A stretch of DNA of 64,000 nucleotides, taken from positions 1-64,000 of the IMG/VR virus record IMGVR_UViG_3300005337_000441, one strand, 5' to 3'. Position 1 is the stretch's first letter. Each line of letters opens with the position of its first letter. Shown here piece after piece: positions 19,308-41,615 of the stretch. The notes beneath the pieces were generated by a model, which was not told where the DNA came from, did no database searches, and was given only the letters and a program-made list of their open reading frames with translations. This DNA is from a virus. Made by a program: the position numbers and the translations under genes.

Positions 19308-19976
19308 ATGGCAGGCAATCGTCAAGCCGCAGAGGCATTCATCCTGAGGTTCATTGACAAGCTGGCGCCTGGCACCAGCAACGCTCAGAACTACAAGGAT
19401 GCCTTTGCGGGGATGAACGACAAGGAATTCGAAGCCTTCATCAACCGACTGGCGAGCGGTGAAGAGTTCCTTGTTCTCATCATGCCCAACTTCGCAAAGA
19501 TCGAGCTCGACGTCGAACGCAACTTCGCCATCGGTGACGAACTCGGACACAACTTCTTCCAGAAACTCTGGATTGAAGGCAAAGACGGGATGCCCACGTA
19601 CCAAACGCCCATCCCCTACCTGGTGCTGGATCTGCCACTGCGACGTGCCTCGCAGCTGCTGACCAAAAAGCGTTCGGTGCCGCAGCACAACCGAGTGATC
19701 GACGCCCTCACGGGCCAGCCCACGGGTGAATCCAAGGGCGCGAAGATCTCCTACCCTGAACTGCAAGTGCTCTCGGCCATGGGCATGGATGCATCTCTCG
19801 TGGAACTGATGAAGTACCGCGGGGGTGACGACAAGGGACGTGCGGCCATGGTGGGACAGTTGTCTCGCTTTGGCACGACCAATCTCAAATCGCTGCAGCC
19901 TTTTGCCAGTGGTGTGAAGTCCACGCAAACGCTCAAGACCTTCCTGACCGCCGCTCACCTGAAGAGCACGCTCTAA
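19308..19976 (+). CDS. RNA polymerase beta subunit, C-terminal fragment
   Basis: 222 residues from the ATG at 19308; the frame is open further upstream but there overlaps the preceding gene. The middle matches the conserved end of bacterial RpoB. LTGQPTGESKGAKISYPELQ corresponds to the [20 protein letters not shown] region, LSAMGMDASLVELM to WALEAYGAAYTLQEML, and GGDDKGR to KSDDVNGR. The last helix (TLKTFLTAAHLKSTL) corresponds to the closing ESFNVLLKEIRSL helix. In the cellular enzyme this region anchors beta to the beta' clamp. It is exactly the part missing from the long beta gene at 37155. Split beta and beta' genes are known from phiKZ-type jumbo phages, where the pieces assemble into one enzyme. 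Confidence 0.72.
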   Translation: MAGNRQAAEAFILRFIDKLAPGTSNAQNYKDAFAGMNDKEFEAFINRLASGEEFLVLIMPNFAKIELDVERNFAIGDELGHNFFQKLWIEGKDGMPTYQTPIPYLVLDLPLRRASQLLTKKRSVPQHNRVIDALTGQPTGESKGAKISYPELQVLSAMGMDASLVELMKYRGGDDKGRAAMVGQLSRFGTTNLKSLQPFASGVKSTQTLKTFLTAAHLKSTL

Positions 19977-19983
19977 CAAGCCC

Positions 19984-20703
19984 ATGGCTCAAGACTCGAT
20001 TTACTCAACCATGTACGTGGAGCTTGACTGCTTGCTGGACACCCGGCTCGCAACGCTTTACGTCATGGGTGAACAGTACTGTGACAGAGCCTTCAAAGCC
20101 AAGTATCACGAGCGGATCAGCGATCTGCTCCCTGGTATCTCCTACGAAGAGTTCTCTGCTGCATACGCCAAACGCAACAAACAAACACTCAAGCACGCAA
20201 TGATGACGCCTGTGGGTGTCATGATGCGTGACTTTGCACAAAAGACAACGGAGAACACTCTCAATTCTCCGCATCACCACGTTCCCAAGATCGTGCTCAA
20301 CGTCTACCCGTATGAACTGGATGACGATGAGCGGATGGTTTTGGCTCGTACTGTCAGGAGCATCACGCTCAGCCTGGCGGACGTCGAGGTGATTCGTCGT
20401 GAACCCAAAGACGTCACACCGCTGTACGTCAAACACAACCTCACCACCTTGGTGATGTACCGCTACGACGAGTGGCTGGAGTTGCATTGCGCCAACGGAC
20501 TCTTCAAGAAGACGTCTGCGCCCGATGTTGCGCTACTCGCTCCGAGGGTGTACTTCAAAAAGCCTGACGCGACCCCAGCGCCTGGCGAGGATCCGTTTCG
20601 CAGCATGGAAGAGATGGCGTCGCCGCTCATCAACCTGCACCTGCTTCCCGCCAATGTGTTCTCGATCATCGTCAATCCCAGTCAGACAGCAAAACAAGCA
20701 TAG
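19984..20703 (+). CDS. Unknown protein
   Basis: 239 residues, not recognised. It starts 7 bases after the beta C-terminal fragment and probably shares its transcript and translation. The N-terminal half is helical (LDTRLATLYVMGEQYCDRAF, then ISYEEFSAAYAKRN). The C-terminal half has alternating strands and ends in a short hydrophobic segment (LINLHLLPANVFSIIVN). There is no metal site, P-loop or membrane helix that I can support. Its position next to a polymerase piece makes a transcription-related role possible but untested. Confidence 0.6.
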   Translation: MAQDSIYSTMYVELDCLLDTRLATLYVMGEQYCDRAFKAKYHERISDLLPGISYEEFSAAYAKRNKQTLKHAMMTPVGVMMRDFAQKTTENTLNSPHHHVPKIVLNVYPYELDDDERMVLARTVRSITLSLADVEVIRREPKDVTPLYVKHNLTTLVMYRYDEWLELHCANGLFKKTSAPDVALLAPRVYFKKPDATPAPGEDPFRSMEEMASPLINLHLLPANVFSIIVNPSQTAKQA

Positions 20704-20738
20704 TCAGGCGCTGCGTGAGCAGGCCTGACTATGCAGTA
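20702..20738. terminator. Bidirectional hairpin with GTGA loop
   Basis: AGTCAGGC (20702-20709) pairs with GCCTGACT (20723-20730), with an inner CTGC-GTGA-GCAG arm. The plus side continues TATGCAGTAG; the minus side continues CTATGCTTGTTTTGCTGTC. Lies between convergent genes. Confidence 0.85.
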
Positions 20739-20740
20739 GT

Positions 20741-21139
20741 TCATGCAGATTTGGCGGGGTTCATGATGTCGTCAAGCTGCAGCGTTTGCACGCCGATGTG
20801 TGCTTCGCCTTCCACCGGGATGAAAGGCACGTCCGTCGGCAGCGACGGCATGGACGTGCGTTGCAGATCTGCAGGACGCGCCGTGACGCGACGCAACATC
20901 TCAGCAACCATGGCCGTGGCCGTGGCGTTGTTCTTGGCGTTGGCATCGTCGGACTTGATCTTGGCCTTGGTGAGGTTCACCTTGTCCATGCCGTCCAGTG
21001 CCTTCATGAGGAACGCACGGTTTTCTTCCGACTCCGGAATCTTGCCGTCCTTCATCATCTCGGTGATGATCTGTCCCCGGATGTTTTGAGTCCGCTCAAG
21101 TTGAGCTTTCTCGACATCGGTAAAAAGCTCGTTGGCCAT
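20741..21139 (-). CDS. Unknown small acidic-start protein
   Basis: 132 residues from the ATG at 21139, which follows AAAAGGATA; an upstream in-frame start at 21178 would run through the promoter-like element used by the plus strand. The N-terminal two thirds are helical (ELFTDVEKAQLERTQNIRGQ, then GKIPESEENRAFLMKALDGM); the end is proline-rich. The helical part, with the 'GKIPE...LMKALDGMDK' pattern, could be a small DNA-packaging or regulatory protein. I could not identify it as a terminase small subunit from sequence alone. It is the only minus-strand gene in its neighbourhood. Confidence 0.6.
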   Translation of the reverse strand: MANELFTDVEKAQLERTQNIRGQIITEMMKDGKIPESEENRAFLMKALDGMDKVNLTKAKIKSDDANAKNNATATAMVAEMLRRVTARPADLQRTSMPSLPTDVPFIPVEGEAHIGVQTLQLDDIMNPAKSA

Positions 21140-21168
21140 GATGGGTATCCTTTTTAGAAAGACCTTTC

Positions 21169-21190
21169 GGTCACTCATACTTCAATTGAC
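21169..21190 (+). promoter_or_regulatory. Candidate phage promoter (GGTCAC-NN-ATACTTCA type)
   Basis: GGTCACTCATACTTCAATTG, then AC, is one of the best copies of a repeated intergenic element. It has a GGTCAC left arm, an ATACTTCA core and a right arm TTGAC that mirrors GTCA. It lies 27 bases before the gene at 21217. No consistent -35 hexamer is seen among the copies, which argues for a phage-specific promoter. Confidence 0.65.
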
Positions 21191-21216
21191 TTGCTAGCAG
21201 AATCGGGAGCATCCGC

Positions 21217-21732
21217 ATGCTTCGAATCCTTCGGGATCTCCGTGCACGCTTGACTGCTCGCCTTCGAACGTCTCCACCTGTTCAGCTCGAACCGCCTCCG
21301 ACTCCAAAGAACGAGATCGAAGAGCTGATCGACAAATGGAGATCCATCGAGCCCGCTAGGCTAAATGGGGTTTTCTCATCAGATATGTCCATTTTTAAGG
21401 TACATCTCTGCAAGACAACCGTTCAGGAGTACGTGAAACATCTGAACTTTGTGATCGGCTTTTTCGAAAGAGATGTCGATCTACATGCGCAGACACTCGT
21501 CTTCCAAGGCACGCTCGTCTACCTGCGTGACTTCTTTATCAGCGATAAAGGTTTCTATCTCGACCCAGTTGAGGAAAGCGCGGCGCTCCAAGAAAGAGCT
21601 ATCGCGTTCCTGAACCACTACAACCAAGCGAGGACTCGTGTAGATCCGTCCTTCCCCCAACAACGAAATGTCTCCCTCACTAAACACTTGGTGAGCGAGC
21701 TTAACCAGCTGGCCGAAGTTCTTCAACTATGA
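21217..21732 (+). CDS. Unknown protein
   Basis: 171 residues, not recognised. The N-terminus is strongly basic (LRILRDLRARLTARLR) followed by a proline-rich linker (PPPTPK), then a helical domain (TVQEYVKHLNFVIGFFERDV, YLRDFFISDKGFYLD). The weakly amphipathic basic start might touch membrane or nucleic acid. It is the first gene after a good promoter candidate, and its last four bases overlap the start of the next gene (ATGA), so translation of the two is coupled. Confidence 0.65.
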   Translation: MLRILRDLRARLTARLRTSPPVQLEPPPTPKNEIEELIDKWRSIEPARLNGVFSSDMSIFKVHLCKTTVQEYVKHLNFVIGFFERDVDLHAQTLVFQGTLVYLRDFFISDKGFYLDPVEESAALQERAIAFLNHYNQARTRVDPSFPQQRNVSLTKHLVSELNQLAEVLQL

Positions 21733-22448
21733 GCCTTAAAGACGTTATCAAACCCTACGGTGAAGACATCACCACAGGTATGCCTGACAGCATCCTGTCG
21801 GGTTTGTATCGAACGGTGCTGAAGGACTTGGGGATCGAGGAGACTCGGTTCATCACCCAGGTCAACAAGTACATCCAAAAACGAGAAACTACCGGCGAAA
21901 CGAAAGACGTCTCCAGCGTGAAGGGTACGCTGCGCAACGAGCTTTTGAAGTCTGTCATGACATGGAAGGTCTTTACCAAAGGTCTTCAGGTGATCAACGT
22001 CGCCACATGTCAGATCGGCGTTGAGGTGTATTTCAACGACAAAAGGAGAAGCCCTGTGGCCGTCACGAAGACGCTGCACCTGCTCACACCACGAGGAGAA
22101 GATATTGCCCGAGACGACACATTCCTCTCCGGTTTGTTTCGGGATCTGATGTTCGCCATGGGCACGTCCCACGAGCGGTTTGCGGAGTTGCTTGCGCTGT
22201 ACGTACGCCGAGCCGGAATTCCTGCAAACTTGAAGGAGCTCGCCAGTGCTCGCGGCAACATCAAAAAGGAGCTCTTCAGTCCCAAGATGACCTGGAAGGT
22301 GTTCATCAAGGGTTTGGTGCTTCTGGACGTGTCGGAGTTCATCTTTGCGGTTAGGTTGGATCACCGCAGAGGCGACAGCACGATTCACAGGCGCTCCATC
22401 ATCTTGGACCAGATGACGGATGAGACAGGGGACGGCGATGAGGAATAA
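21729..22448 (+). CDS. Unknown protein with internal tandem duplication
   Basis: 239 residues made of two related halves. The first has DSILSGLYRTVLKDLG, then RFITQVNKYI, then LRNELL, then MTWKVFTKGLQVINV. The second has DTFLSGLFRDLMFAMG, then RFAELLALYV, then IKKELF, then MTWKVFIKGLVLLDV. Each half is a few helices followed by an MTWKVF-KGL motif and a strand. No enzyme motif is present. The conserved tryptophan-lysine motif in both halves suggests a binding surface, and the duplication suggests pseudo-dimer symmetry. It overlaps the preceding gene by four bases and ends in an acidic tail. I cannot assign a function. Confidence 0.65.
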   Translation: MSLKDVIKPYGEDITTGMPDSILSGLYRTVLKDLGIEETRFITQVNKYIQKRETTGETKDVSSVKGTLRNELLKSVMTWKVFTKGLQVINVATCQIGVEVYFNDKRRSPVAVTKTLHLLTPRGEDIARDDTFLSGLFRDLMFAMGTSHERFAELLALYVRRAGIPANLKELASARGNIKKELFSPKMTWKVFIKGLVLLDVSEFIFAVRLDHRRGDSTIHRRSIILDQMTDETGDGDEE

Positions 22449-22462
22449 GGACGACGGATAAC

Positions 22463-23104
22463 ATGAACGCTGAAGTGAAATCACCTCAAGATGCAGCGAA
22501 AGCGGGCGGGAATAATTCCAATCTCGCTGTATCTGATGAACCCACCTTACATCCAATCGTTGAACTGATCGTTCAGTCCTTCGATTACGAGTACGTGCGC
22601 AAAGGTTTGTATTTGCAGGCGACTGCAAGTCCGAACCCCGAACCCGATGCCGCTCCTGATCCAGGGATCAAGGCGCTCGGCATGGAGTACTACTCGCTGT
22701 ATTTGGGTGCGAACTTTTTCACGTTCTTCACGGGAAGAAGTCTCGACCAACTCACTACAACGTTCTTCACAAAAGAATTAATCCGGGACTTTCACTTGAA
22801 CTTCACTGAGCGTGTCTCGGTGGGGATTTCGTGTCTGCCGGGAGCCGACATGGATGCGTTCATCGATGGAGTTGTTGCAGCCATCACACGTACCAAGCCG
22901 GATCCTGAATCGCCCGACCTCAACAGCCTCGTCAACAAAGAGACCATCCAAAGTCTCTACCAGTCCCCGGAAGTCCTCAAGAAACTCCTCAAGAGCGACC
23001 TCTGGCTTGTCACCTTGTATGTGTTGTTAGTCAATTTCCAGCACACCAACGTCTTTTCGGAATTCATCTCACCTGTGGCGAGGAACCCACGGTCGAGAAC
23101 CTGA
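22463..23104 (+). CDS. Unknown protein
   Basis: 213 residues, not recognised. The first 30 residues look disordered (DAAKAGGNNSN), then comes a mainly helical domain with aromatic-rich strands (MEYYSLYLGANFFTFFTGRS) and a C-terminal hydrophobic helix (DLWLVTLYVLLVNF, about residues 178-192). That helix could be membrane-associated or buried. It is the third gene in a tight plus-strand series beginning at 21217. Confidence 0.6.
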   Translation: MNAEVKSPQDAAKAGGNNSNLAVSDEPTLHPIVELIVQSFDYEYVRKGLYLQATASPNPEPDAAPDPGIKALGMEYYSLYLGANFFTFFTGRSLDQLTTTFFTKELIRDFHLNFTERVSVGISCLPGADMDAFIDGVVAAITRTKPDPESPDLNSLVNKETIQSLYQSPEVLKKLLKSDLWLVTLYVLLVNFQHTNVFSEFISPVARNPRSRT

Positions 23105-23154
23105 ACTGAATTCCCCCAACGAAATACACACACTTGAAAAACGGAGATCCAACC

Positions 23155-24117: not shown

Positions 24118-24144
24118 AGACTCCGAGTCATTGAACTCCTAAGG

Positions 24145-24200
24145 TAGAGCACCAGGGCGACTTCGGTCCCCTGGTGCTCTATGCTGTTTTCTTTTTTTGC
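24145..24200 (+). terminator. Hairpin terminator with TATGCTGT and T-tract
   Basis: A 13-bp stem (24145-24157 with 24169-24181) with an inner GAC-TTCG-GTC arm. The final bases run into TATGCTGTTTTCTTTTTTT, which combines the recurring element with a canonical T-tract. Confidence 0.9.
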
Positions 24201-24245
24201 CGTGGTGGAATCCAATTCTATGATAACTGGTACTGTGGAGTACTC

Positions 24246-25304: not shown

Positions 25305-25311
25305 CAGCAAA

Positions 25312-27580: not shown

Positions 27581-30500
27581 TTACGCAGATTTTCTTGTCA
27601 GATCCACTGCGGCTTCGATCCTCTGAAACGATGCCGGTTGTTGCACAGGCTTGACAGCGTTGGGCTGTTGAGCTTGGGCGGGTTGTGCCGCGGCCTTCGT
27701 GACGGCTTGCGTCATGGCTTCGCTGTTCTGCAGCATCTTCTGCAAGACCGAGAGGGTCTGCACATGGATGTCCAGAGACTTGGTCAGGATGTCGTTGGTG
27801 GTGGCCGTGGTCTGTGACGAAGAACCCATCGCTTGCGGACGGCTGACAGTGTCCGGCTGCACGGCAGTTGTCGGAACAACCGGTGCAACACGACCCTGTG
27901 CCATTGGCATGGGCTGACGCACGATCGGAGCAGGCTCCGTCGAAGCGCGTGGCGTCACGGGAGGCTGGCCGCCCGTAGCGTCTCTCACAATGACTGGCGG
28001 CTCATCGCTCATCCGCCTTGCAGCGGGTTTGCTTTGAAGGTCACCACCACCTTGGTAGTTGATGCCGAACTCTTGCGCCTTCTTGGACAGACGTTGGTCG
28101 ATCTTGCGATAGACCTCACCGACCGTCAGAGGACGAGTGCCCTCGTAGAAGTAGCTCCTGTTGGCCGCTGCCGCGTTGGGCAGCACATTGGCTGCGATCT
28201 CGTTGGGATCAGCAGACAAGAACTTGCGTGCCCCGGTCGGACCGAGGAAGTGCGCCAAGTACACGTCCGTCATGTTCGGGTTGGGTTTGACCGAACTGAT
28301 GAAACGCTTGTTGGTTTTGTAGTAGTCCGACGCTGCGATGGTCGAGTCTTCCACGTCAGTGCGACGCGGGTTCGGGCCCATGCGAGGACCTGCGACTTGA
28401 ACCTGCTGATTCCAGCTGGCGTTCGTGAAGCCGAAGAGGCCTTCCGAAGTACCAACCGTAGAGCGAGCGTTGGGGTTCAGGCTCGACTCGACAGCAGCGT
28501 ACGTGAGGAGATCGTTCGGAGGCACGCCTTCTTGACGCGCCACCTTGGTCACCTTGTCCTTCACGTCGCCGTAAGGTCCCGACTGTTTGTCGTCGCCAGC
28601 GGTTGCCACGTCCTTGGGACGCGCTTCCATGTCCGGCATCTTAGCCGCAGCGTTGTACTTGTCGCTTTGTTGGTAGCTTGCCTGCACGCTGCTCGCCTGC
28701 TTGACACCCACGGAGGGTGCGTTTGCAGCCGTTTGCATCGGAGGCTTGATGGCCGCAACGGCAGCCACCGGCTTCGGAGCGGTCACGGGTTCGTTGGCGC
28801 CAGAGACATTCGGACCTTGCGCGAGCTCGGCCACCTTGTCCTTGTCTGACTTGCCATCGTCCTTCACGGTTTGACCCGTGAGTCCCATTTGAGCCACAGC
28901 GAACATCGTGTCGCGCTTGCCCAGCGGCGTGCCGCGAATGGAACCCACGCCACCGCCACCCTTGTTGATCGATGCACCCACCGCCTGAGAGGCAAAGTTG
29001 GGATCGTTCTTCGCGAGTTTGAGGTTACCCTGGATACCAGCAGCTTCCGTGTGCCACGGCTCGCCACCCACCGGGCGGGTGAAGCCGTACTTGCGCATCA
29101 GTCCAAGATCATCCATCGCGTCCAAGTCACCGCTGTTCATGTCGACCGCGAGGCCGTACTCGTGCAGCGAAGTGCCAGGCCTTGCAGCCTTCTTGGGATT
29201 TTGACGGAAGAGCTTTTCTTGTTCAGCGGTGTCACGTACTGCGGCATTCATCGTCACCGACTTGCCCGTGCGTTCACCGTACTCCTGGATCATGGCCAGG
29301 AGTTGTTGCTTCATGGCCGGGTTCATGCCGTCAAGCTTGACCCCGTCACCCATCTTCAGGTACTGCATGGCTTGAGAGCCGTCGCGCACGGGGCCATCGG
29401 CCACCTTAAGCGGACCCCCGAGCTTGCTAGGACCTTCATTGATGGTCTTGTCCACCGGACCCTTCTCACCTGTGGCAGGTTTCTCACGCAGCGGACCATC
29501 TTCGGCCGACTGTGATTCATCCCTGGGAGCAGCCTTGTTGCGGTCCTCGTTGGACTTGACAACTTGAGCCACGACCTTCTTGCCTTCATCGGCTTTCGGG
29601 TCCACAGCAGGTTTCTTGGTCGGATCGATCGCAGCAGTGACAGCGGTGACGCCAGCGACAGCCTTGGCAGCTTTGTCCGCCTTGTCCTTGTCCGCCTTTG
29701 CCTTCTTCTCTGCTTTGTCTTTGTCCGAAGCGGCTTGCTTGTCAGCGGCTTCCTTGGCCGTTGCCGTGCAGACCTTGATCAGCTCTTGAACCTGCGGTCT
29801 GGTGTAAGCCAGTTGCGGCAGATCCTTGAACGGAGAGACCGTCACGTTGTACGGACCGCTCTCGTAGCCGATCAAGCCATAGAACTTGACCTTCTCCGCG
29901 GCCGTCAATTCATCGTGAGCATTCTTCAGGCTCACCTTCTTGTTCACAGCGTAGAGCGCCGTGCAGTTGGTGAGGAAGAACGGTTTGAAGCGAGCGTCGA
30001 ACCATTGGCCCAGTTTAGAGGCCGATTCACCGTCTGCTTTGTCGATAGAGAAGATGTTCAGGAGTTCTTCCGGATCGATCTTCTTGTCCATCAAGACAGC
30101 TTTGTCACCCACGAACCCGACACGGCCGTCCAGGAGGTATTCCTCCAGTGCGAGCATGAGGTGGTTGTGCGATTTGTCACCGACCGTCAGACCGTATTGG
30201 TACATCCGGATCTGTTCGGTATCGTTGACGTTGTCTCGCGTGGAGTATTTGTAGAGCTTGTAAGCACCGTAGCCGACAGCAGCCACTGCTGCGGCGCCAA
30301 GTACCACAGGAGAAGCCAGGACTGCACCGATCGCTGAGATACCGGCACCGACAGCGCCGAGGATCGCAGAACCGACACCACCCGTCATGAGGCTGCCGAC
30401 GAGAGCGACGTTGCGAATCATGCCGACCTTGGAGACCAAGTTGGCCACCATGCCCACACGACCAGCACCTGCAACAGCGCCAGCGATCGGGCGTCCGATG

Positions 30501-33500
30501 GCGCCCAGCGCAGAGCCGACGGCTCCTGCTGCACGACCACCCAGTCCCAACAGACCCTTGGCTCCGTTGAAGACCTTGCCGACCAGACCACCAGCCATGC
30601 TGGCCACCGACCCTACACCGCTGATAACGCTACCCGCAGCGCCAAACAGCCTGCCCGCACCACTGGTGAGGAAACTGAAGACGCCAGACACCTTGTCCAT
30701 GATGGACTTGAAGATATCCTTTTCGGACACGTATTTGGCTTCGGCCGCTTGAAGACCCGGCGCATTGGCGCGACGTTGTGCGTCGGCTTCTGCTTGAGCT
30801 TCCAAGCGGTCTTCCCACGAACCATCCCGACGACCACTGCCGTCACGATCGTTGTAAGCAGGGTTGTCGACCTTGCGGCGACGACGCGTGGTCGTGGTCT
30901 TCTTCGGTGCGGCCTTTTGTGCCAGAGCCTTGTCGGTTTTCTTGCGACCCCGCTTTTTGGTTTCCGGCTCAGCTTCTTCAGCCTTGCCACCAAAGAACGA
31001 CATCGCGCCACCGAGCAACTTGCCCTTCAGACCACCCGCATTGGCCTTGATGGAACCCAGGACCTTGGAACCACGCTCCTTGAGTCCCTTCGTTCCGCCC
31101 AGCGATGCAAGTTTGTCTTTGCCTTGTTGGACCAGTTTATCAAAGCCCGTTTTCGGAGGCTCCACCGGAGCAGCCTTGGCCTTGCGGCGACGGCGCTTAC
31201 CCTTGACGGGCTCAGGTGCGACTTCTTCTTCCTTGGCAAAGCGATTCATGATGCGGTCCTTGAGGGACTTGGCACCACCGAGAATCCCGCTGAACGTATC
31301 GCCAAGCGTCTTGTCAGAGGTGTACTTGGCTTCCGGAGTTTCAAGTTCCGTGCCTTCAGAGCCACCTTCTGTGGTCGTGGTGATTTCTTCGTCGCCACCG
31401 CCTGCTGCACGCTGCGCAGCGAGCTTGCGGCCAACCAAAGTTTTCTTGCCGTAAGGGTTCTTCCTCTTTTCGAGGGTTTCCAGGAGCTTGTCTTTGAGAG
31501 ACTTGCTCTGGTCCTTTTCAGCAGCGCGTTGCGCCGCCAACTTACGACCCACCAGTGTTTTCTTGCCAGAGGGGTTGCGCTTCTTGTCCAGAAGCTCCAT
31601 GGCCTTGTCCTTGAGGGACATGCCTTTGGCGGTGATTTTGTCTTTGAGCTCGCCAGCTTTGCTCTTGAGATCAGTGAACGTGGCGCCACTGGCTCCAGAC
31701 TTCTTGTACTTCTCTTCGTGACGAGGTGGATTTTCACCACGCATCAGGTCACGCATCTCCACGAGCACATCGTAGATGCGCTTGTTGCCGAGGAGACCGA
31801 AGTTCTGGAAGAAGTCCTTGATGCCAGGCAGCCATTTGTCCATGAGCTTGCCACCGAACTCTTGACCCTTTTGCAGCAACATGTCCCAGGTCGAGCGCAG
31901 TGCCTTGATGGTCTTGCCACCGAGGTCCTTCGCCTTTTCTGCGATGCGTTCCAAGCCGGTCTTGACTCGGTTGCCGTACTGGTCGTACACGCCTTCAACA
32001 AGATCTTGAGCGTCAAGGATGACTTCACCTGCCTTGTTGACGATGGCGCCCTTGGCTTTCACCAAGTCGTCCATGGTCTTCAGCACCTGACCCGAGGCTG
32101 AGTCGTAGTACTCGCCCTCACGCAGCAACGAAGCCTTGATCACCGGAGACTTGCGTCCCTTGATGTAGACGTCGCGCACAGCGTACAGCGAGTTCTTCAC
32201 GGTGGCTTTCGCATCCGTGAGGAGATCCTTGGCCTTTTGGATATGGATCGGCAGTTTGTTGTCGATGTAGTCCTTACCGTAGGCGTAGCCTTGCTGAGCC
32301 AGCTCCCCGCCCTTGTCACGCGCTTGGCGCAGCTTGTCAAGGAAGGGATCACGGTAACGGTCATAGAGTTCTTGGGCTTTGTCCATGCCCGGCTTGACGA
32401 TGCGGTCACGACCGTATTCATAGCCGCGAATGGCACCTGCCTTGGCATCTTGAGCACCGCGTTTGACGAGTTCACCAGAGGCCGTCCAGATGTTACCCAG
32501 GATGTCCTGATAGGTGTCCTCACCCTTGTACTTGGAGCCAGTGCGACGTGCACCAGCTCTACCACCGGCCCCACCACCAAAACCACCCTTGCCCGATTCA
32601 ACGAGCTTACGGATGGCCTTGACGTCAGTGGCAATGGCCTTGACAGGGTTGGCAGCTTCTTCCTTCTTCGTGAAGAGCTTCTTGACCTTGTCGACAATAT
32701 CGTCTTGCTGGTCAGCGAGCTCCTGGATGGCAGCCATGTTGTTGCCATTCATCGAGGTCAGGTCGATCTTTTTGCCGCCCGGGGCTGCACCATCACCCAT
32801 GTTCTTGCGAACGTCTTGGGCCATGGGACCACGGTGCTGTTCATCGTCACCTTCGCCTGGCTTGTAGAACCAGTCAAAGATGCCCGTCTTGCGGATGGCG
32901 TTGAGTGCGCGCTTCGGATGCAGCGGGTGGATGTCTTCCTTGGTCTCCTCATCGGACTTGATGAGTTGCTTCGGCAGACGCTTGCCCGTGGCATTGCGGC
33001 GCTTCGGACGAGCCTTCTTGATGGCCGTCTTCTTGTTGCGATCCGAAGTCACAAGACCTTCGTCACGCACGAGCTTCAGGTAAGCTTCCTCATTGATGAT
33101 GAAGTCACCCTTGGCATCGCGGTCAACGAGACCTTGCTCTTCGAGGAGCTCACCGTAGCCGGCGTGGATGAGTTGTTCGATGACACCGCGAGCATCTGGC
33201 GTAGCGCTACGCACATTCATGATGCTCTTGGTCAGACCCAGCTGCCCGCGCAGCGGATCCTCAGCGTTTGTCACCTTGTGGTCAAGCAGCGTGTCCACGA
33301 GTTTCTTCGTGTCCGGATCGAGCATCTTGTACGCGTTAGTCGTCTTGATGTTCTCCGGCGTGAACGCCATGTTGGGGATCGACGACACCTTGGCGATGAA
33401 ATCGGTGATCTTCGCCTTGGTGCCCTCGTCTGTCTTCTTGTCGCCGATGAAGTCCTCTGCCGCATCACGGGCAAAGAAACCATAGCTCGACGTCTTGATC

Positions 33501-35059
33501 TTGTCGGACAGCGACTTCTTCACCATCTCGCCGATTGCTTTGCGATTGACGAACTTGCCGCTGCTCTGATCGTAGTAAACCATCTCGGCTTGCTCATCAC
33601 CCGTCCGCAACACGGTGATTTCACGCAAGATGCGTGCGAGGTAGCCAGGGATGATGTCCGTGATGCTGCGCTGCGTCTTGTCATTGAAGACGCCCACATT
33701 GGACGGAGATGTGATGCCGTAGGGGCTATTGACCCGGTTATCCGGTTGAGAGTCGGTGAAGTAGTTGGCGAATCGATCGATCCCTCGGGCCAACGAGCCC
33801 TTGGGTCCTTCTGCCTTCAAGTACTCTTGCGCCTTGTCGGATTTGCGAAGCTCTCCGATGGCACCGGGTAGGTTAGTGACGGCGTTGGCCCCTTTGGTGA
33901 GGGCGTTACGCAGCGCGGGCACTTTGTCCAAGCGCGGTCGTGCGAAACGACCAACCTTGTCACCCACCTTGTCACCAAGGAAACCTCCGAACGCATTGCC
34001 AGCCAGCTGGGCTCCGGAGAGCTGCTCGCCGCCAATTTCCTTGAGGATGTCGTTCGTTTCCTTGAGCTGCTGGTAACTGTCCACCCCCATGGTAACAGCT
34101 TCCAGACCTTGCTTCACCCCTTTGACATAGTCTTTGATGTCTGCAGTGATGCGCTTCAACCCGCGATCGATCGCGGAGCCTTCACCGAAGAACGAGTTTT
34201 GAATCCTGTCCATGAACTTGGTTCGCGCCAAGTCCTTGAAACGTTCAGAAGCCTTGATCTTCACGAACTCCGGCAACGCGGTGTTCTTGGCGATCGCTTC
34301 GTTTTGTGCTTTGAAGACCTCAAAGTACTGCTTCGACGTCGAAGCAATGTCCGTGAGAGCAAAGTAGCTACGGTATTGTAGCTCCAATGATTTCTTCTGT
34401 ACAGCTTGGGTGATGCGCTCCTGGTAGGAGGACATGCGTCCCACGTTGTTGCTGATCGTGGTCAGGATACCGAGACTTTGATCGAACTCCTTACGGCGGA
34501 TGTTCTCAACAATCTCGTCCTTGGCATTTCGACGTGCCTCAACCTCGGTCTGCGTGGCTTGTTGCTGCTGGAAGATGGAACCCAGGTTCGTTGCGATGCC
34601 TTGGTCTTGCAGCTGTTCTTTGGAGAGAGAAGACGGGCTCGACTCATCCCCGAAGAGGGAAGCGATTCGAGAGGAGATCTTCTTGAGCGTTTTGCGCTCT
34701 TCAGGCACCAGGCGGTCGACCTTCTTGGCCAACCGCGACGCCTGTGGTTTTAGCTCTTTTACCGCGTCATCGTATAGCGATGAGGCTGTGCCTGCGGCTT
34801 TATCGGCCGCATCCACGATGGTCCCGAACTCCTCCGGGAGAGCACTACGGGTCAATCTTGCTAAAAACGATGGGCTCTTGAACTTATCGACCGCTCCTGA
34901 GATGGTGCCCTTGAAGACCTCCGTCGTCGGAGATCGTGACGAGCGTTTCTTCGCATCAGGAGTGAGTTGACTGTCGATTTTCTCGTAGTCAAACTGGTCG
35001 AAATTCAGTTCATCGTCAAGCGAGAAGTCCTCGGTTCGAACTTTCTCATTCTTTGCCAT
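27581..35059 (-). CDS. Tape-measure-like protein with M15 peptidase and transglycosylase domains
   Basis: 2,492 residues. The first 650 are helical, as expected of a tape measure that sets tail length. At about 700-790 there is a segment resembling the S74 endosialidase chaperone: S702-D703 in IKSDEETKED, then FDWFYKPGEGDDEQHRGPMA, QDV, and MAAIQEL. Basic repeats with GKKTLVGRKLAAQRAA twice lie near 1160-1220, and a glycine/alanine-rich hydrophobic region at about 1470-1610. A peptidase M15 site follows at H1966, D1973 (HEYGLAVD) and H2003 (PWHTE), then a lytic transglycosylase-like domain with E2191 (AAVESSLNP). The hydrolases probably open the cell wall during DNA injection. The start follows CGGAGG. 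Confidence 0.85.
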   Translation of the reverse strand: MAKNEKVRTEDFSLDDELNFDQFDYEKIDSQLTPDAKKRSSRSPTTEVFKGTISGAVDKFKSPSFLARLTRSALPEEFGTIVDAADKAAGTASSLYDDAVKELKPQASRLAKKVDRLVPEERKTLKKISSRIASLFGDESSPSSLSKEQLQDQGIATNLGSIFQQQQATQTEVEARRNAKDEIVENIRRKEFDQSLGILTTISNNVGRMSSYQERITQAVQKKSLELQYRSYFALTDIASTSKQYFEVFKAQNEAIAKNTALPEFVKIKASERFKDLARTKFMDRIQNSFFGEGSAIDRGLKRITADIKDYVKGVKQGLEAVTMGVDSYQQLKETNDILKEIGGEQLSGAQLAGNAFGGFLGDKVGDKVGRFARPRLDKVPALRNALTKGANAVTNLPGAIGELRKSDKAQEYLKAEGPKGSLARGIDRFANYFTDSQPDNRVNSPYGITSPSNVGVFNDKTQRSITDIIPGYLARILREITVLRTGDEQAEMVYYDQSSGKFVNRKAIGEMVKKSLSDKIKTSSYGFFARDAAEDFIGDKKTDEGTKAKITDFIAKVSSIPNMAFTPENIKTTNAYKMLDPDTKKLVDTLLDHKVTNAEDPLRGQLGLTKSIMNVRSATPDARGVIEQLIHAGYGELLEEQGLVDRDAKGDFIINEEAYLKLVRDEGLVTSDRNKKTAIKKARPKRRNATGKRLPKQLIKSDEETKEDIHPLHPKRALNAIRKTGIFDWFYKPGEGDDEQHRGPMAQDVRKNMGDGAAPGGKKIDLTSMNGNNMAAIQELADQQDDIVDKVKKLFTKKEEAANPVKAIATDVKAIRKLVESGKGGFGGGAGGRAGARRTGSKYKGEDTYQDILGNIWTASGELVKRGAQDAKAGAIRGYEYGRDRIVKPGMDKAQELYDRYRDPFLDKLRQARDKGGELAQQGYAYGKDYIDNKLPIHIQKAKDLLTDAKATVKNSLYAVRDVYIKGRKSPVIKASLLREGEYYDSASGQVLKTMDDLVKAKGAIVNKAGEVILDAQDLVEGVYDQYGNRVKTGLERIAEKAKDLGGKTIKALRSTWDMLLQKGQEFGGKLMDKWLPGIKDFFQNFGLLGNKRIYDVLVEMRDLMRGENPPRHEEKYKKSGASGATFTDLKSKAGELKDKITAKGMSLKDKAMELLDKKRNPSGKKTLVGRKLAAQRAAEKDQSKSLKDKLLETLEKRKNPYGKKTLVGRKLAAQRAAGGGDEEITTTTEGGSEGTELETPEAKYTSDKTLGDTFSGILGGAKSLKDRIMNRFAKEEEVAPEPVKGKRRRRKAKAAPVEPPKTGFDKLVQQGKDKLASLGGTKGLKERGSKVLGSIKANAGGLKGKLLGGAMSFFGGKAEEAEPETKKRGRKKTDKALAQKAAPKKTTTTRRRRKVDNPAYNDRDGSGRRDGSWEDRLEAQAEADAQRRANAPGLQAAEAKYVSEKDIFKSIMDKVSGVFSFLTSGAGRLFGAAGSVISGVGSVASMAGGLVGKVFNGAKGLLGLGGRAAGAVGSALGAIGRPIAGAVAGAGRVGMVANLVSKVGMIRNVALVGSLMTGGVGSAILGAVGAGISAIGAVLASPVVLGAAAVAAVGYGAYKLYKYSTRDNVNDTEQIRMYQYGLTVGDKSHNHLMLALEEYLLDGRVGFVGDKAVLMDKKIDPEELLNIFSIDKADGESASKLGQWFDARFKPFFLTNCTALYAVNKKVSLKNAHDELTAAEKVKFYGLIGYESGPYNVTVSPFKDLPQLAYTRPQVQELIKVCTATAKEAADKQAASDKDKAEKKAKADKDKADKAAKAVAGVTAVTAAIDPTKKPAVDPKADEGKKVVAQVVKSNEDRNKAAPRDESQSAEDGPLREKPATGEKGPVDKTINEGPSKLGGPLKVADGPVRDGSQAMQYLKMGDGVKLDGMNPAMKQQLLAMIQEYGERTGKSVTMNAAVRDTAEQEKLFRQNPKKAARPGTSLHEYGLAVDMNSGDLDAMDDLGLMRKYGFTRPVGGEPWHTEAAGIQGNLKLAKNDPNFASQAVGASINKGGGGVGSIRGTPLGKRDTMFAVAQMGLTGQTVKDDGKSDKDKVAELAQGPNVSGANEPVTAPKPVAAVAAIKPPMQTAANAPSVGVKQASSVQASYQQSDKYNAAAKMPDMEARPKDVATAGDDKQSGPYGDVKDKVTKVARQEGVPPNDLLTYAAVESSLNPNARSTVGTSEGLFGFTNASWNQQVQVAGPRMGPNPRRTDVEDSTIAASDYYKTNKRFISSVKPNPNMTDVYLAHFLGPTGARKFLSADPNEIAANVLPNAAAANRSYFYEGTRPLTVGEVYRKIDQRLSKKAQEFGINYQGGGDLQSKPAARRMSDEPPVIVRDATGGQPPVTPRASTEPAPIVRQPMPMAQGRVAPVVPTTAVQPDTVSRPQAMGSSSQTTATTNDILTKSLDIHVQTLSVLQKMLQNSEAMTQAVTKAAAQPAQAQQPNAVKPVQQPASFQRIEAAVDLTRKSA

Positions 35060-35112: not shown

Positions 35113-36735
35113 ATGTCTTTAATTAGCCAAACGCCGTTCAATATCGCACTGCTCATCCCGAGCGATGCAGATGTTGCCGGTATGCGCCCCGTGAAAGTGC
35201 TGGACATCAACGATGGTCTGAGCAAAAACTTTCACCCCGATGGTCTGTTCTCGGTGGAAACGTTCGGCAAAGTGGGTGAGGAAAGGCGCAACCGTCTCTT
35301 CTCCTACATCGACATGCACATCAGCGTCTTCCACCCCGTGGTGTATAAGGCGCTGTTGGACTTGAAGAGCCTGTACGGTGACATCATCGCAGGCACGGGT
35401 TATGCGGTGTTCGACCCCGAAACCAACGATTTCGAAAAGTCCGACGTCACTCAAGGGGACACGGGCTTTGCCTTCTTCGTGAAGCACTTCGAGAAGATCC
35501 AGTTCGAGTCGCGCCCCAGCGCCAAGCGGGAGTTCAACATCGCGCTGGTGAACAAGTACCGCAAGAACTGCCTGATGGACAAACTCGTCGTCATGCCGGC
35601 AGGCCTGCGTGACTACACGGTCGACGAAAACTCCAAGCCGAGTGAAGACGAGATCAATGGCCTGTACCGTCGCGTGCTCAATGTGGCTTCGGTCATCGAG
35701 AACGTCAACGCCAAGAGCAACGTCGAGTACCTGGACTCCACCCGCTACGGCCTGCAACAGCGCGTCAACGAGATCTACGAGTACATCGTGAATCTGCTTG
35801 AAGGCAAGAGCAAGCTCATTCAGGGCAAGTGGGCCTCGCGCAAGATCTTCGACTCCACTCGAAACGTGATTTCCCCGCACGTCTCCAAGACGGACGAGTT
35901 CTTCACGGGTCGCACGGTGTCTTCGAATCAGACCATCGTCGGCTTGTACCAGTACCTGCGCTGCATCATGCCGCTGGCGGTCAAGCACGTGCGCGACACG
36001 TACCTCTCCAAAGTGTTCCTGGGTCCGAACTCACCCGCCGTGCTGGTGAACAAGAAGACCTACAAGAAGGAACTGGTCAACCTCGATCCGCGTTACTACG
36101 ACGAGTGGATGACGTACGAGGGTCTGGAAAAGCTCATGGCCCGGTTCGGTCAGGAAGAGCTCCGTGACGACGTCCTGGAGATCGAGAACTACTACGTGGG
36201 TCTGCTGTACAGGCAAGGTGGTCATGTGCGCTTCGTGCAGGACATCTCCGACGTCCCCATCAACGGCTCGCACGATCCTCGCGAACTCCTCACGCCCATC
36301 ACGTTCTGTGAACTGCTGTACCTGTCGGTGTTTGCTGACGCGGCGAGCATCCCTTGCCTGCTGACACGTTATCCGGTCACGGGGTATGGCTCGATCTATC
36401 CGAGCTACGTCTACCTCAAGACCACGGTGCGTGCTGAACAGGTCAAGGTCCTGGGCGACGACTGGGAAACCGTGATCGGCACAGCCTACGAGTTCCCCAT
36501 CAAAGGCGAACAGTACTTCAACGCGATGAGTCCTTCGACCACTCACGTGGCTCGTCTGGGCGCAGACTACGACGGCGACACTTGCTCGCTGATCTGCCTG
36601 CTCACCGAAGACGCCAAGGTGGAAGTCAAGAAGAAGCTCAACAGCCGCGACTACTATGTGGGTGTCAATGGCAAGATGGCGTTCAGCGCCGGCAACGACA
36701 TCATCGATCTGGTGTTGGCCAACGTCACGAGCTGA
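35113..36735 (+). CDS. RNA polymerase beta' subunit, N-terminal half
   Basis: 540 residues from the ATG at 35113, which follows AGGATCAGG; an earlier in-frame start would overlap the tape-measure promoter region. The catalytic magnesium motif GADYDGD is at residues 483-489 (D485, D487, D489), matching NADFDGD of bacterial RpoC. Upstream, RNAP landmarks appear in order: DGLFSVETFG (like DGLFCARIFGP), LIQGKWASRKIFDSTRNVIS (like LLGKRVDYSGRSVI), and TRYPVTGYGSIYPSYVY. There is no zinc-binding cysteine cluster. The protein ends shortly after the motif, so the bridge helix and trigger loop must be encoded elsewhere; I do not see them here. With the beta pieces it would form a phage RNA polymerase of the phiKZ kind. 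Confidence 0.85.
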   Translation: MSLISQTPFNIALLIPSDADVAGMRPVKVLDINDGLSKNFHPDGLFSVETFGKVGEERRNRLFSYIDMHISVFHPVVYKALLDLKSLYGDIIAGTGYAVFDPETNDFEKSDVTQGDTGFAFFVKHFEKIQFESRPSAKREFNIALVNKYRKNCLMDKLVVMPAGLRDYTVDENSKPSEDEINGLYRRVLNVASVIENVNAKSNVEYLDSTRYGLQQRVNEIYEYIVNLLEGKSKLIQGKWASRKIFDSTRNVISPHVSKTDEFFTGRTVSSNQTIVGLYQYLRCIMPLAVKHVRDTYLSKVFLGPNSPAVLVNKKTYKKELVNLDPRYYDEWMTYEGLEKLMARFGQEELRDDVLEIENYYVGLLYRQGGHVRFVQDISDVPINGSHDPRELLTPITFCELLYLSVFADAASIPCLLTRYPVTGYGSIYPSYVYLKTTVRAEQVKVLGDDWETVIGTAYEFPIKGEQYFNAMSPSTTHVARLGADYDGDTCSLICLLTEDAKVEVKKKLNSRDYYVGVNGKMAFSAGNDIIDLVLANVTS

Positions 36736-36737
36736 TC

Positions 36738-37136
36738 ATGACCAAACTCACGAGCGACTACCGCGAAGGCAAAGGCAGCACGGCCACCTCGGAAGGACAC
36801 GAGTACCAACTCGACATCCTCTTCGAGTTGACGTGGGACCGCAAGCCTACCATCAAGAATGTCTCGGATCTGGACTGGATCCTGGAATACACCGAGATCG
36901 ACGAAGAGCGTGTCAAGAACGCTGACCTCGGAGTTCCCATCCTGATCTACTGGTCCGATGCACTCCAACACTGGGTGACGCTGGACGGGGCACATCGCCT
37001 CACAAAAGCCAAGCGTGAACACAAGCATGGAATCGGTTGTCGTATCGTTGACGAGGACATGCTCGCCAAGGCTCGAATCGATCACCACAAAAAACATGTC
37101 GCCGTGGAGAGCATGCCTCTTTACGCCAAGTGGTAA
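36738..37136 (+). CDS. ParB/Srx-like small protein
   Basis: 132 residues, starting 2 bases after the beta' stop, so translation is probably coupled. A core resembling the ParB/sulfiredoxin nuclease fold is visible: a hydrophobic strand (GVPILIYWSD), then HWVTLDGAHRLTKAKREHKH and GCRIVDEDML. The D-G-x-H-R motif is the family's nucleotide-binding site. Such domains act as CTPase switches, nucleases or methyltransferase partners. Its location between beta' and beta suggests a role linked to transcription or its timing, but this is inference. The protein lacks a recognisable DNA-binding helix-turn-helix. Confidence 0.6.
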   Translation: MTKLTSDYREGKGSTATSEGHEYQLDILFELTWDRKPTIKNVSDLDWILEYTEIDEERVKNADLGVPILIYWSDALQHWVTLDGAHRLTKAKREHKHGIGCRIVDEDMLAKARIDHHKKHVAVESMPLYAKW

Positions 37137-37154
37137 CCAACCCATAGGTCTCCG

Positions 37155-40100
37155 ATGCAAATGCATTTCAACGTCTTTTACCACCAGTACGGTATCAGAC
37201 GAATCGATCACCTGCTGACCCCGAAGCTGCTCACGCTTCAGAGTCTGCCCCGAGATGCGATGGTCCACTACCTCAGTGACGACCCGCAAGCTCCTGACCT
37301 GGATGTCTCCCAGCCCTGGCTGGCGACGTCCAACAAGAACGTGGCTGTGGACTATGCGACACAGCTCACTGACCTGCTGGGCAATCCTCACCCTCACATG
37401 GGGAAGACCGTGCGTGACCTCACGCGCGACTTCCATCAAAGCCACCGCAAGTTCAAGTTCACGCCGGACGGGGTGAACAAGATCGGTGACCAGACGGTGC
37501 TGCAAGTCATGAACTACAGCTACCTGGATGCGATGTACACCTACGCACCGGTGCCCCTCACGCCCTGGTACAAGTTCTGGAACAACAACCGCCTGCTGTT
37601 CGGCACCATTGCCAAGATCGGTCAGAGCAAGTCGAAGAACCACTTCGTCTTTCTGAAGGTGCCTCAACAACTGCCGTCCTACCAGCTGCTCAACCTGTAC
37701 GCTGACAAGGAAGTGGCGCGCGTCACACTGCAGGTCTTCAACTCCTACGCGGATCTCATGATCTTGCAGCTGTGGAAATGGCTGGAAGGCGAGGATCGCG
37801 AGGTGACGGTCTTCGGTGCGCTCACGCAAAGCGACCTGGCCAAGGTGAACATCGTCTTCGTCGTGCCGGACGGCCGCTCGATCGTGATGAACCTGGGCTA
37901 CATGGACAGTTGGATCAAGGGTCATGCCAAGCTCGACGCTCAGAAGAGCCAACAGCAGCAAGACCCCCAGGCGCTCAAGAAGCTTTTCTTGAAGTTCCTG
38001 ATCACGGTGACCGCTGCCATCCCGGAAGCCGAAGTCGCTGAGATCCAAGGCGCCCAAACACCGGAAGACAAGCAAGACCAGACCGAGCTTCAAGCGGAGT
38101 CCGACGAGTACCTGCGTGAACATGACGATGACGCCGAAGACAGCATCGACGATCACGAGTTCGAGGACGCCGCGGATCTGATGTCTGGTCTTGGCAAAAA
38201 CACCAAGACGCTTAAAAAGCGTCCGAATGAAGACGTTGCTCAGCGCCTGCAAGCTCTGGACAAGGACATCGACTCCTCGATGTCTTCCGCAACACTGGAC
38301 CTGGGCGAGAAGCTCAAGACGATCGATCAAGACCTGAAGGTGCTCGACCTGCTCAACAGCCGTCGCCTGAAGGATCGTGGCATCCGTCTGGACAAGGAAG
38401 GCGAGCAAGTGCCGCCGGCCGCTCCGGTGGAAGACATTCCGCTGGAAGTACTGCAGCAGCAGATCTACCAGCCTGTCGACTACGAAGAAGCGCTGCTCAA
38501 GCAGATCAATGAATCGGCGGACTTCGGTCTGCTCTCGGCTGCGGACTTCCGCAGGGCTACAGCTGACGTTCAGAAGTACAAGACGTCGCAAGACCCTTAC
38601 GGGTCAGGCCAGCTCACCGTGCAAGCCATGGTGGTCACGCCTGAGGCGATCAAGCTCAATCCGCAAAAGACCGAGATCACGGTGTCGGACAAGGTCGTGG
38701 ACAAGACGATGGCTCAGTCCTCGCTCATGGCCTTCGATCACGACTATATCAAGAACGTCTACAAGAAAGACATGCTGGGCATGATCAATAACCTGCAAAA
38801 AGCAGGCGTGATCGTGCGCAACCATGAAATCGAACTGGACCACAGCGCGCTGGGCACCTACGAGAACCACACGCTCGAACTCAAGCCGATCGATGGCCAG
38901 CCTTCCAAGCTGAGGTTCCGTCTGCCGCAGGTGCAAACCGATGGCACGTTCGTGGCCAATGGCAACAAGTACGTGATGCGCAAGCAGCGCGTGGATGTAC
39001 CCATTCGCAAGACCAACGCCTACACGGTGGCTTTGACGAGCTACTACGGCAAGACCTTCGTCACGGTCAACCAAAAGCAGGCGAACAATTCGCTGGCTTG
39101 GATCGTGAAGGAACTCAACAAAGCGTCGTTCTCGGACAACCACCCTTACATCACGCGCGTGGCGCCTGCCCAGGTCTTCGACAACAACTTCGAAGCCCCG
39201 TGGATCTACAACGCCCTGGCCAACCACTTCAAGTCGGTGACCACGAAGGACTACACGTTGGTCTTTGACCATCAGGAACGTCTGGGTCTCTTTGAAGAAG
39301 CCAGCGAAGGCGGTGAGAAGCTCGGTCCCTACGATCCGGTGCATGCCGCCAAGATCGAAAACGCGGGTGGTAAGGCGTGGAAGTACCGACTCGTCGGCTA
39401 CAGCAACGCAGGCCTGGGCCACATCGTGGTCGACCGTGCCAACCAGTTCTGGCTGCTCGGTCGTGAAGGCGAGCCTCAGCCGCTGGGCGACATCTACCAA
39501 GTGTTGCAACTGGACGCTCACAAGGCTCCGGTGGACTTCACCGAAGTGCGCATCTTCTCCAAGACGGTGCCTGTCGGTGTGGTGCTCGGTTACACCATCG
39601 GTTTCAAGAACCTCTTGAAGCTGCTGGGTGCCAAGCATGAAGTCGTGGAAGGTCGCCGGCTGCCGGACCTCACACCACACCAGTACGTCATTTCCTTCAA
39701 GAACGAGAAGTACATTCTCGATCGCCGTCAACGCACCGCCTCCATGATCCTTTCGGGGTATCTGGACTACGAACGCCAACTGCGCTCGTACGACGCGGCG
39801 GAGTTCGACAAGAAGGACGTCTACCTGAACCTGCTGGCCTCCAAGGGCCTGGGGTCTTTGTACATCCGTGAGCTTGAACTCACCAACCAGCTCTTTGTCG
39901 ACCAGATCACTCTGTCGATCCTGCAGCAAATGAACGAGCCTTCGACGTTCCACGGTCTGCTGATCCGTGCAACGCAGATGCTGGAGACCTACCACCATCC
40001 GGACTCGCAGGACATGAAGTCCATGCGCATCCGCGGCTACGAACGTTTCCCTGGTGCGGTCTACAAAGAACTCACGGCGCAAATCCGTCAGTTCAAGAAC

Positions 40101-41615
40101 CGCAACATCGCGGGCAAGTCCCGTGTGGAAATGAGTCCGTACCAGATCTGGCAGACGGTGATGAAGGATCCGGCCATCAAGCTGGTGGAAGACATCAACC
40201 CGATCCAGAATCTGAAGGAAGCCGAAATCATCACGTACGTGGGTACGGGTGGCCGCTCCAAGGACTCAATCAACAAAGAAAACCGTGCGTTCCATCCGAA
40301 CGACATGGGCATCGTCTCTGAAGCCACGGTGGACAGCTCGGACGTGGGTATCAATGCCTACCTCTCTGCGAACCCCAACTTTGCCGACATGCGCGGCATC
40401 GCGCTGCCGGACAAGAACTTCAACCCTGCGAACCTGATCTCCACCAGTGCACTGCTGGCGGTGGGCGCCAACCACGACGACCCCAAGCGCGTGAACTTCG
40501 TGTCGATCCAGCAATCGCACACCATCGCCGCTCACGGCTATCACCAGCCCGTCGTGCGCACCGGTTACGAATACGTGATCGGTAACCGTACCACGGACAT
40601 GTTTGCCTACTTCGCCAAGGACGACGGCAAGGTGGTGAGCGTGGACGACAACGGCGTGATCATCGAGTACGCGGACGGCACCAAGAAGGGTGTGACGCTC
40701 GGCCGTGTCTACGGCAAGGCCGAAGGCAGCGTCTATCCGCACGACATCGTCTGTCCCCTGAAGGTGAACGCGAAGTTCAAGAAGGGTGACACGATCGCTT
40801 ACAACACGGGTTTCTTCGAGCCAGACTTCCTCGACCGCAGCAAGGTCGTGATGAAGAACTCCATGGTCGTGAAGGTGGCACTCCTGGAGTCCAGCAACAC
40901 GCACGAAGACGCCTCCGCCATCAGCAAGAGCGTGGGCCAACGCTTGAGTGCTCGTACCACCAAGGTGCGTTCGTTCACCGTGGACTTCAAGCAACGTCTG
41001 AACGATGTCGTGAAGGTCGGCGATTCCGTCGGTCCCAAGGACATCCTGATGGTGATCGAAGACGAGATCACGTCCAACACCAACATCTTCGACCAGCAGT
41101 CGCTGGAAGTGCTGAAGAACTTCTCCAAGCAAGCCCCCAAGGCCAACTACCTCGGGACGATCGACAAGATCGAGGTGTTCTACCACGGCGCCAAGCAAGA
41201 CATGAGCGCTTCGCTCAAGATGCTGGCTGACCGCAGTGATCGCCAGCTCGGTGAGGTTTGCCGCGCTTCCAACAAGCCGGTCATCACCGGTCAAGTCAAC
41301 GACGACTACCGGGTCTCCGGTGTGCCGCTCGCACTCGACAAGGCCGAAGTGAAGATCTACATCACGGTGACCACCACCGCCGGTGTGGGTGACAAGGGCG
41401 TGTTCGCATCACAAATGAAGAGCGTGATCGGTGAGGTGATGGACTACAAGGTTCACACCGAAGAAGGTCAAGAGGTTGAAGCGATGTTCGGTTACCGCTC
41501 CATCGCGGCCCGTATCGTGGAAAGCCCTGTGATCATCGGCACCACCACGACTCTGTTGAAAGTGATCGCCAAAAAGGCGGTCGACATCTACCGAGGATCT
41601 GTGCAAAAAGCCTAG
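37155..41615 (+). CDS. RNA polymerase beta subunit lacking its C-terminal domain
   Basis: 1,486 residues. From about residue 480 RpoB landmarks appear in order: VQTDGTFVANGNKYVMRKQR (near 595, like the MTEKGTFIINGAERVVV region), SINKENRAFHPNDMGIVSEA (near 1035, like the catalytic fork region), NHDDPKRVNFVSIQQSHTI and RTGYE (near 1105, like DDANRALMGANMQRQAV), NTHEDASAIS (near 1250, like YNYEDSIVIS), and GVGDKGVF (near 1410, like HGNKGV). It stops before the final GEMEVWALEAYGA region, which is encoded separately at 19308-19976. The first 450 residues have no RpoB match; they include an acidic, glutamine-rich linker near 300-360. Eighteen bases separate it from the ParB-like gene, so beta', ParB-like and beta form an operon. 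Confidence 0.85.
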   Translation: MQMHFNVFYHQYGIRRIDHLLTPKLLTLQSLPRDAMVHYLSDDPQAPDLDVSQPWLATSNKNVAVDYATQLTDLLGNPHPHMGKTVRDLTRDFHQSHRKFKFTPDGVNKIGDQTVLQVMNYSYLDAMYTYAPVPLTPWYKFWNNNRLLFGTIAKIGQSKSKNHFVFLKVPQQLPSYQLLNLYADKEVARVTLQVFNSYADLMILQLWKWLEGEDREVTVFGALTQSDLAKVNIVFVVPDGRSIVMNLGYMDSWIKGHAKLDAQKSQQQQDPQALKKLFLKFLITVTAAIPEAEVAEIQGAQTPEDKQDQTELQAESDEYLREHDDDAEDSIDDHEFEDAADLMSGLGKNTKTLKKRPNEDVAQRLQALDKDIDSSMSSATLDLGEKLKTIDQDLKVLDLLNSRRLKDRGIRLDKEGEQVPPAAPVEDIPLEVLQQQIYQPVDYEEALLKQINESADFGLLSAADFRRATADVQKYKTSQDPYGSGQLTVQAMVVTPEAIKLNPQKTEITVSDKVVDKTMAQSSLMAFDHDYIKNVYKKDMLGMINNLQKAGVIVRNHEIELDHSALGTYENHTLELKPIDGQPSKLRFRLPQVQTDGTFVANGNKYVMRKQRVDVPIRKTNAYTVALTSYYGKTFVTVNQKQANNSLAWIVKELNKASFSDNHPYITRVAPAQVFDNNFEAPWIYNALANHFKSVTTKDYTLVFDHQERLGLFEEASEGGEKLGPYDPVHAAKIENAGGKAWKYRLVGYSNAGLGHIVVDRANQFWLLGREGEPQPLGDIYQVLQLDAHKAPVDFTEVRIFSKTVPVGVVLGYTIGFKNLLKLLGAKHEVVEGRRLPDLTPHQYVISFKNEKYILDRRQRTASMILSGYLDYERQLRSYDAAEFDKKDVYLNLLASKGLGSLYIRELELTNQLFVDQITLSILQQMNEPSTFHGLLIRATQMLETYHHPDSQDMKSMRIRGYERFPGAVYKELTAQIRQFKNRNIAGKSRVEMSPYQIWQTVMKDPAIKLVEDINPIQNLKEAEIITYVGTGGRSKDSINKENRAFHPNDMGIVSEATVDSSDVGINAYLSANPNFADMRGIALPDKNFNPANLISTSALLAVGANHDDPKRVNFVSIQQSHTIAAHGYHQPVVRTGYEYVIGNRTTDMFAYFAKDDGKVVSVDDNGVIIEYADGTKKGVTLGRVYGKAEGSVYPHDIVCPLKVNAKFKKGDTIAYNTGFFEPDFLDRSKVVMKNSMVVKVALLESSNTHEDASAISKSVGQRLSARTTKVRSFTVDFKQRLNDVVKVGDSVGPKDILMVIEDEITSNTNIFDQQSLEVLKNFSKQAPKANYLGTIDKIEVFYHGAKQDMSASLKMLADRSDRQLGEVCRASNKPVITGQVNDDYRVSGVPLALDKAEVKIYITVTTTAGVGDKGVFASQMKSVIGEVMDYKVHTEEGQEVEAMFGYRSIAARIVESPVIIGTTTTLLKVIAKKAVDIYRGSVQKA

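Follow-up and report, generated by a model that had tools for sequence, protein, structure and literature searches.

The window analysed here comprises bases 1-64000 of the IMG/VR virus record IMGVR_UViG_3300005337_000441 (hereafter G000; 215,768 bp), an uncultivated virus contig that may be incomplete. Three plus-strand genes in it had been regarded in a preliminary description as pieces of a phage RNA polymerase, and all three reading frames are indeed open: one of 222 aa (19308..19976), one of 540 aa with the motif DYDGD (35113..36735), and one of 1486 aa with a GDK...K motif (37155..41615). They are assigned here to the beta-C, beta'-N and beta-N subunits of a virion RNA polymerase (vRNAP), as orthologues of phiKZ gp149 / SPN3US gp218 / 201phi2-1 gp233, phiKZ gp180 / SPN3US gp240 and phiKZ gp178 / SPN3US gp241, respectively.

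The longest product, beta-N, falls in phrog_3148, annotated as 'RNA polymerase beta subunit' (hmmscan against PHROGs, E=0), and shares 33% identity with phiKZ gp178 over its full length (tblastn, 37155-41600). One stretch, residues 1089-1226, is similar to Thermus beta 534-666 (E=4.4e-7), and a profile alignment places residues 510-1468 (numbered as profile columns) on E. coli RpoB 13-1136 (E=0.0041), leaving around 510 N-terminal residues with no RpoB counterpart. The GDK...K motif is found at residues 1412-1422 and both of its lysines are aligned with those of RpoB without gaps, GVGDKGVFASQMKSVIG (beta-N 1410-1426) lying on QPGDKMAGRHGNKGVIS (RpoB 1061-1077), with GDK/MK of the phage protein in register with GDK/NK of RpoB. 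Since both lysines are present in the long piece, the catalytic centre of beta is to be located in beta-N. The protein ends about 65-75 residues after this motif, which agrees with the earlier observation that it stops after the GDKG region.

The small gene at 19308 had been proposed to encode the final beta domain that beta-N lacks, and several lines of evidence support this. Its product belongs to phrog_3233, also annotated 'RNA polymerase beta subunit' (hmmscan against PHROGs, E=1.7e-78), and shows 40% identity with phiKZ gp149 (tblastn on the whole record, 19320-19973) and 50% with FLC9 gp52. In profile alignments, residues 1-216 correspond to E. coli RpoB 1131-1330, with E=3e-5 when 7-11 diverse sequences were used, whereas a 58-sequence alignment of closer relatives gave a non-significant value for the same region (E=0.12); these values, computed against the single E. 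coli RpoB sequence, are modest. The motif QPTGESKGAKISYPELQ, already highlighted in the preliminary description, aligns to a 21-residue stretch of RpoB. When the beta-C and beta'-N sequences were searched directly against the PDB, no polymerase was among the hits. An AlphaFold2 model of the isolated beta-C fragment, built with 58 sequences, was of moderate confidence (mean pLDDT 77.7, pTM 0.43). Its first Foldseek match in the PDB was chain C of the AR9 non-virion RNA polymerase (nvRNAP; E=6.5e-5, probability 1.00), followed by beta chains of bacterial enzymes (for instance Thermus 1iw7_C), and all 50 matches listed were from RNA polymerase entries, so that the predicted structure does not fall outside the RpoB fold. 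Global TM-scores were low (0.27-0.36), and the match is therefore one of local fold and not of domain arrangement. Given the modest profile E-values against single references, the assignment to the polymerase rests mainly on orthology and fold.

Orthologues of this protein in Noxifer, 201phi2-1 and SPN3US carry the label 'virion structural protein', and a Pfam search with beta-C, beta'-N and beta-N gave no significant domain; both facts would fit an unrelated structural protein of the particle in which a QPTG-like motif had arisen by chance. We consider this very unlikely in view of the almost full-length profile alignment to RpoB 1131-1330 and of the Foldseek results, where every match listed was an RNA polymerase entry and both matches with E < 0.001 corresponded to AR9 nvRNAP chain C. 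The label would be explained by the packaging of the polymerase itself; the orthologue gp233 of 201phi2-1 has been detected in virions by mass spectrometry, according to a note in its database record.

When placed on RpoB, beta-N and beta-C are collinear and nearly abut, with the junction around RpoB 1131-1136. As judged from these alignments, beta is cut at this linker, after both catalytic lysines and before the C-terminal beta segment. The split had been described as different from that of a simple two-part beta, which is not the case: beta consists simply of an N and a C piece, and it is beta' that is divided in three. The distance between the beta-C and beta-N genes, around 17 kb here, is 15-33 kb in relatives, and in SPN3US and phiKZ 22-33 kb separate beta-C from the beta'-N/beta-N pair, so the 17-kb separation from the remaining subunit genes is the normal layout. 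Genes for phiKZ-like polymerases are known targets of introns, with a group I intron located beside phiKZ gp180 and an intron within the beta gene of PhiPA3 (PMC11620839), and the gap might be taken for an artefact or recent damage, in which an ancestral beta gene was broken in this contig alone by rearrangement, assembly error or intron insertion. However, the standalone 222-aa gene, with its own start and stop codons, is matched by 277 phage records (threshold E<=1e-5), with 80% or more of the query covered in 276, and it was standalone in 78/78 of the IMG/VR loci tested (224-289 codons from stop to stop). This conservation refutes a break particular to this contig, an explanation to which we attach practically no probability; a search of the window against Rfam revealed no intron. 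Relatives of the 222-aa and 540-aa proteins were not found in viral contigs by single-sequence scans, and those of the 222-aa protein were recovered with a profile query. This phage supports a beta split that is common to phiKZ-like phages.

With respect to beta', the N-terminal piece is a member of phrog_2986 ('RNA polymerase beta subunit'; hmmscan against PHROGs, E=1.7e-182), contains no intron and is 36% identical to phiKZ gp180 (tblastn, 35134-36567). The catalytic DYDGD at residues 485-489 lies on DFDGD 460-464 of RpoC, a placement taken from the second-ranked of four alignments, which is collinear over RpoC 2-509; the top-ranked one (E=9.7e-5) extends to RpoC 702. With the motif at 485-489 of 540 residues and the alignment ending at RpoC 509, beta' is split after the DxDGD (DPBB-A) domain. 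The preliminary description had found no C-terminal half of beta' in the window and suggested a search of the full genome; two further pieces were identified. The one with the trigger loop, beta'-M (phiKZ gp80 / SPN3US gp42 type), is indeed outside the window, 95 kb downstream in the same genome (G000:136188-137489); it shares 30% identity with phiKZ gp80 (tblastn 136188-137486, E=3e-58), belongs to phrog_2962, annotated as RNA polymerase beta subunit (E=7e-115), and shows the trigger-loop-like motifs GLRVGSFARGSETIKGGVSAKYLLRAANN. The last piece, beta'-C (43435..44154, plus strand, 239 aa), had been overlooked and does lie within the window. It is the orthologue of phiKZ gp176 (37% identity, E=1.8e-53) and SPN3US gp244 (27%, E=3.6e-21) and is a member of phrog_2926 (E=6e-71). 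A profile comparison of beta'-C and E. coli RpoC did not reach significance (E=0.73), and its role therefore rests on published genetics: SPN3US gp244 (phiKZ gp176) has been put forward as the missing C-terminal subunit of beta' because it is a head protein lost together with gp218, gp240 and gp42 in a gp241 amber mutant (PMC5105663).

The beta'-N and beta-N genes are on the same strand with a single 132-codon gene between them (36738..37136, plus strand) and probably form one operon. The intervening gene begins two bases past the beta'-N stop codon; its product belongs to phrog_17560 (unknown function, E=2.2e-18) and has relatives in jumbo phages annotated as 'putative chromosome partitioning protein ParB'. 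As far as is known, it is not a polymerase subunit. The same gap is gene-free in the phages FLC9 and SURPRISE13, and gp179 occupies it in phiKZ. A vRNAP functionally unlike that of phiKZ could be imagined, for example with the ParB-like protein acting as a lineage-specific polymerase accessory, but this appears very improbable. Other genes surround the subunits. At the place of phiKZ gp181 and divergent from the beta'-N/beta-N pair, the minus strand encodes a 2492-aa protein (27581-35059) with an N-terminal match to phrog_3201 (tail fiber protein), followed by matches to endolysin and transglycosylase families. A head maturation protease gene (44156-44920, plus strand; Peptidase S80, E=5.8e-70) adjoins beta'-C, as is also the case in phiKZ (gp176/gp175). 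Upstream of beta-C, on the plus strand, are two genes, one whose product matches a UvsX-like recombinase (17400-18848, phrog_97) and one for an RNase H-like protein (14190-15827, phrog_3265); in phiKZ, the ribonuclease-annotated gp155 is near gp149.

A second polymerase is encoded in the same record. Searches by tblastn with phiKZ proteins over the whole 215,768 bp gave one place for each of gp149, gp178, gp180 and gp80, and in addition revealed a complete and separate non-virion set, contained in 112084-129159 and 207859-209484 of G000. It includes orthologues of gp55 (112084; phrog_2987), gp68 (120070), gp71-73 (125001-127106), gp74 (127129) and gp123 (207862), and that of gp71-73 is a single 701-aa ORF here and not, as in phiKZ, divided around gp72. 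The record also contains a homologue of ChmA (93063-94937), assigned to the 'nuclear shell protein' family phrog_4795 (E=1.6e-86) and with a tblastn match at 93690. Together, the non-virion polymerase set and the ChmA homologue identify the source, at the sequence level, as a nucleus-forming, phiKZ-like phage.

The non-virion (late) enzyme is likewise split and carries DxDGD and GDK-like motifs (PMC8287921), and the fragments in the window could in principle be parts of it. This is extremely improbable, since all three products match the virion set (gp180, gp178 and gp149) and the orthologues of gp55, gp68, gp71-73, gp74 and gp123 are elsewhere in the record. In addition, the 540-aa beta'-N scores 608 bits against phrog_2986 and just 21 bits against phrog_2987, the family of the gp55 orthologue. 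The beta of the non-virion enzyme is also made of two pieces, but its split site differs: the gp71-73 orthologue keeps a GNK...K motif in the C piece, while the window proteins have GDK in the N piece. No complete beta gene was found in the record, the only other beta being this two-piece non-virion one. The question of a virion versus a non-virion enzyme, raised in the preliminary description, is thereby settled by the orthology of the window proteins to the virion set and the presence of the non-virion set elsewhere.

Subunit identity, collinearity, split points, the complete subunit set and the conserved catalytic motifs are all established from sequence comparison, and the genes almost certainly encode the predicted multisubunit RNA polymerase that a nucleus-forming jumbo phage of phiKZ type packages in its virion. 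Five separate polypeptides (beta-N, beta-C, beta'-N, beta'-M and beta'-C) would correspond to bacterial RpoB plus RpoC. By analogy with the characterised orthologues, they would assemble without alpha or omega, and the enzyme would be packaged in the head, injected with the DNA and used for transcription of early genes. The previous suggestion that the fragments must assemble into one enzyme seems correct on the same grounds, that is, by orthology to the vRNAPs of phiKZ and SPN3US. The N-terminal region of beta-N, of around 510 residues, may be likened to the long N-terminal region of SPN3US gp241, which has been proposed as a head-targeting part (PMC5105663).

Previous reports have already described the division into five pieces, the location in the virion and the fact that beta is cut at different sites in the two polymerases. 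The beta pieces of phiKZ (gp178 and gp149) and SPN3US (gp241 and gp218) are tabulated in PMC5468394, PMC5105663 and PMC7598289; in Table 1 of PMC5468394, beta N/C and beta' N/C of the virion polymerase are listed as ORF178/ORF149 and ORF180/ORF80, along with Ralstonia orthologues. The vRNAP core is considered to consist of at least five polypeptides, both phage polymerases share with cyanobacteria the split of beta' after the DPBB, and beta is split at different sites in vRNAP and nvRNAP, which arose independently of each other (PMC7598289). The split is not unusual, as had first been thought, but the usual vRNAP arrangement in phiKZ-like phages, and the present work adds one more uncultivated phage with this polymerase and no new principle.

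The phiKZ enzyme (gp178, gp149, gp180, gp80, gp176), in which immunoprecipitation of tagged Gp180 also brings down Gp178, Gp80 and Gp149 (PMC10612078), is made of the same five pieces and has its beta cut at the same place, with 30-40% amino-acid identity to the proteins described here. Its beta-C gene is about 27 kb from beta-N, as compared with about 17 kb in this phage, and gp180 extends only to the DYDGD position, beside gp179 and a group I intron (L011:41397-41718, adjoining gp179; Rfam RF00028, 92 bits), whereas beta'-N is here an uninterrupted 540-aa ORF. Uninterrupted versions of around 540 aa, unlike phiKZ gp180, are also present in other phages, and Fig. 7 of PMC5105663 depicts introns in vRNAP genes. 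SPN3US shares the five-piece architecture (gp241, gp218, gp240, gp42, gp244; 27-35% identity), and genetics and mass spectrometry have shown that its five pieces are packaged together, particles of the gp241 amber mutant being devoid of the other four (PMC5105663). Its gene order is the same as here, with beta'-N, beta-N and then beta'-C close downstream, although there is no gene between beta'-N and beta-N. The closest annotated relatives are the Burkholderia phages FLC9 (gp52, gp41, gp40) and SURPRISE13, where orientation and order (beta-C, large tail protein, beta'-N, beta-N) are conserved and beta-C is 13-15 kb before beta'-N; the subunit proteins of FLC9 are annotated as 'hypothetical'. 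Finally, the AR9-type vRNAPs of Bacillus and Staphylococcus jumbo phages have a homologous beta-C segment (30% identity in Staphylococcus phage SA1), which in SA1 constitutes the end of a longer ORF of 679 codons instead of the standalone gene present here, and in Bacillus jumbo phages the beta-C subunit carries a fused HD domain (PMC7598289).
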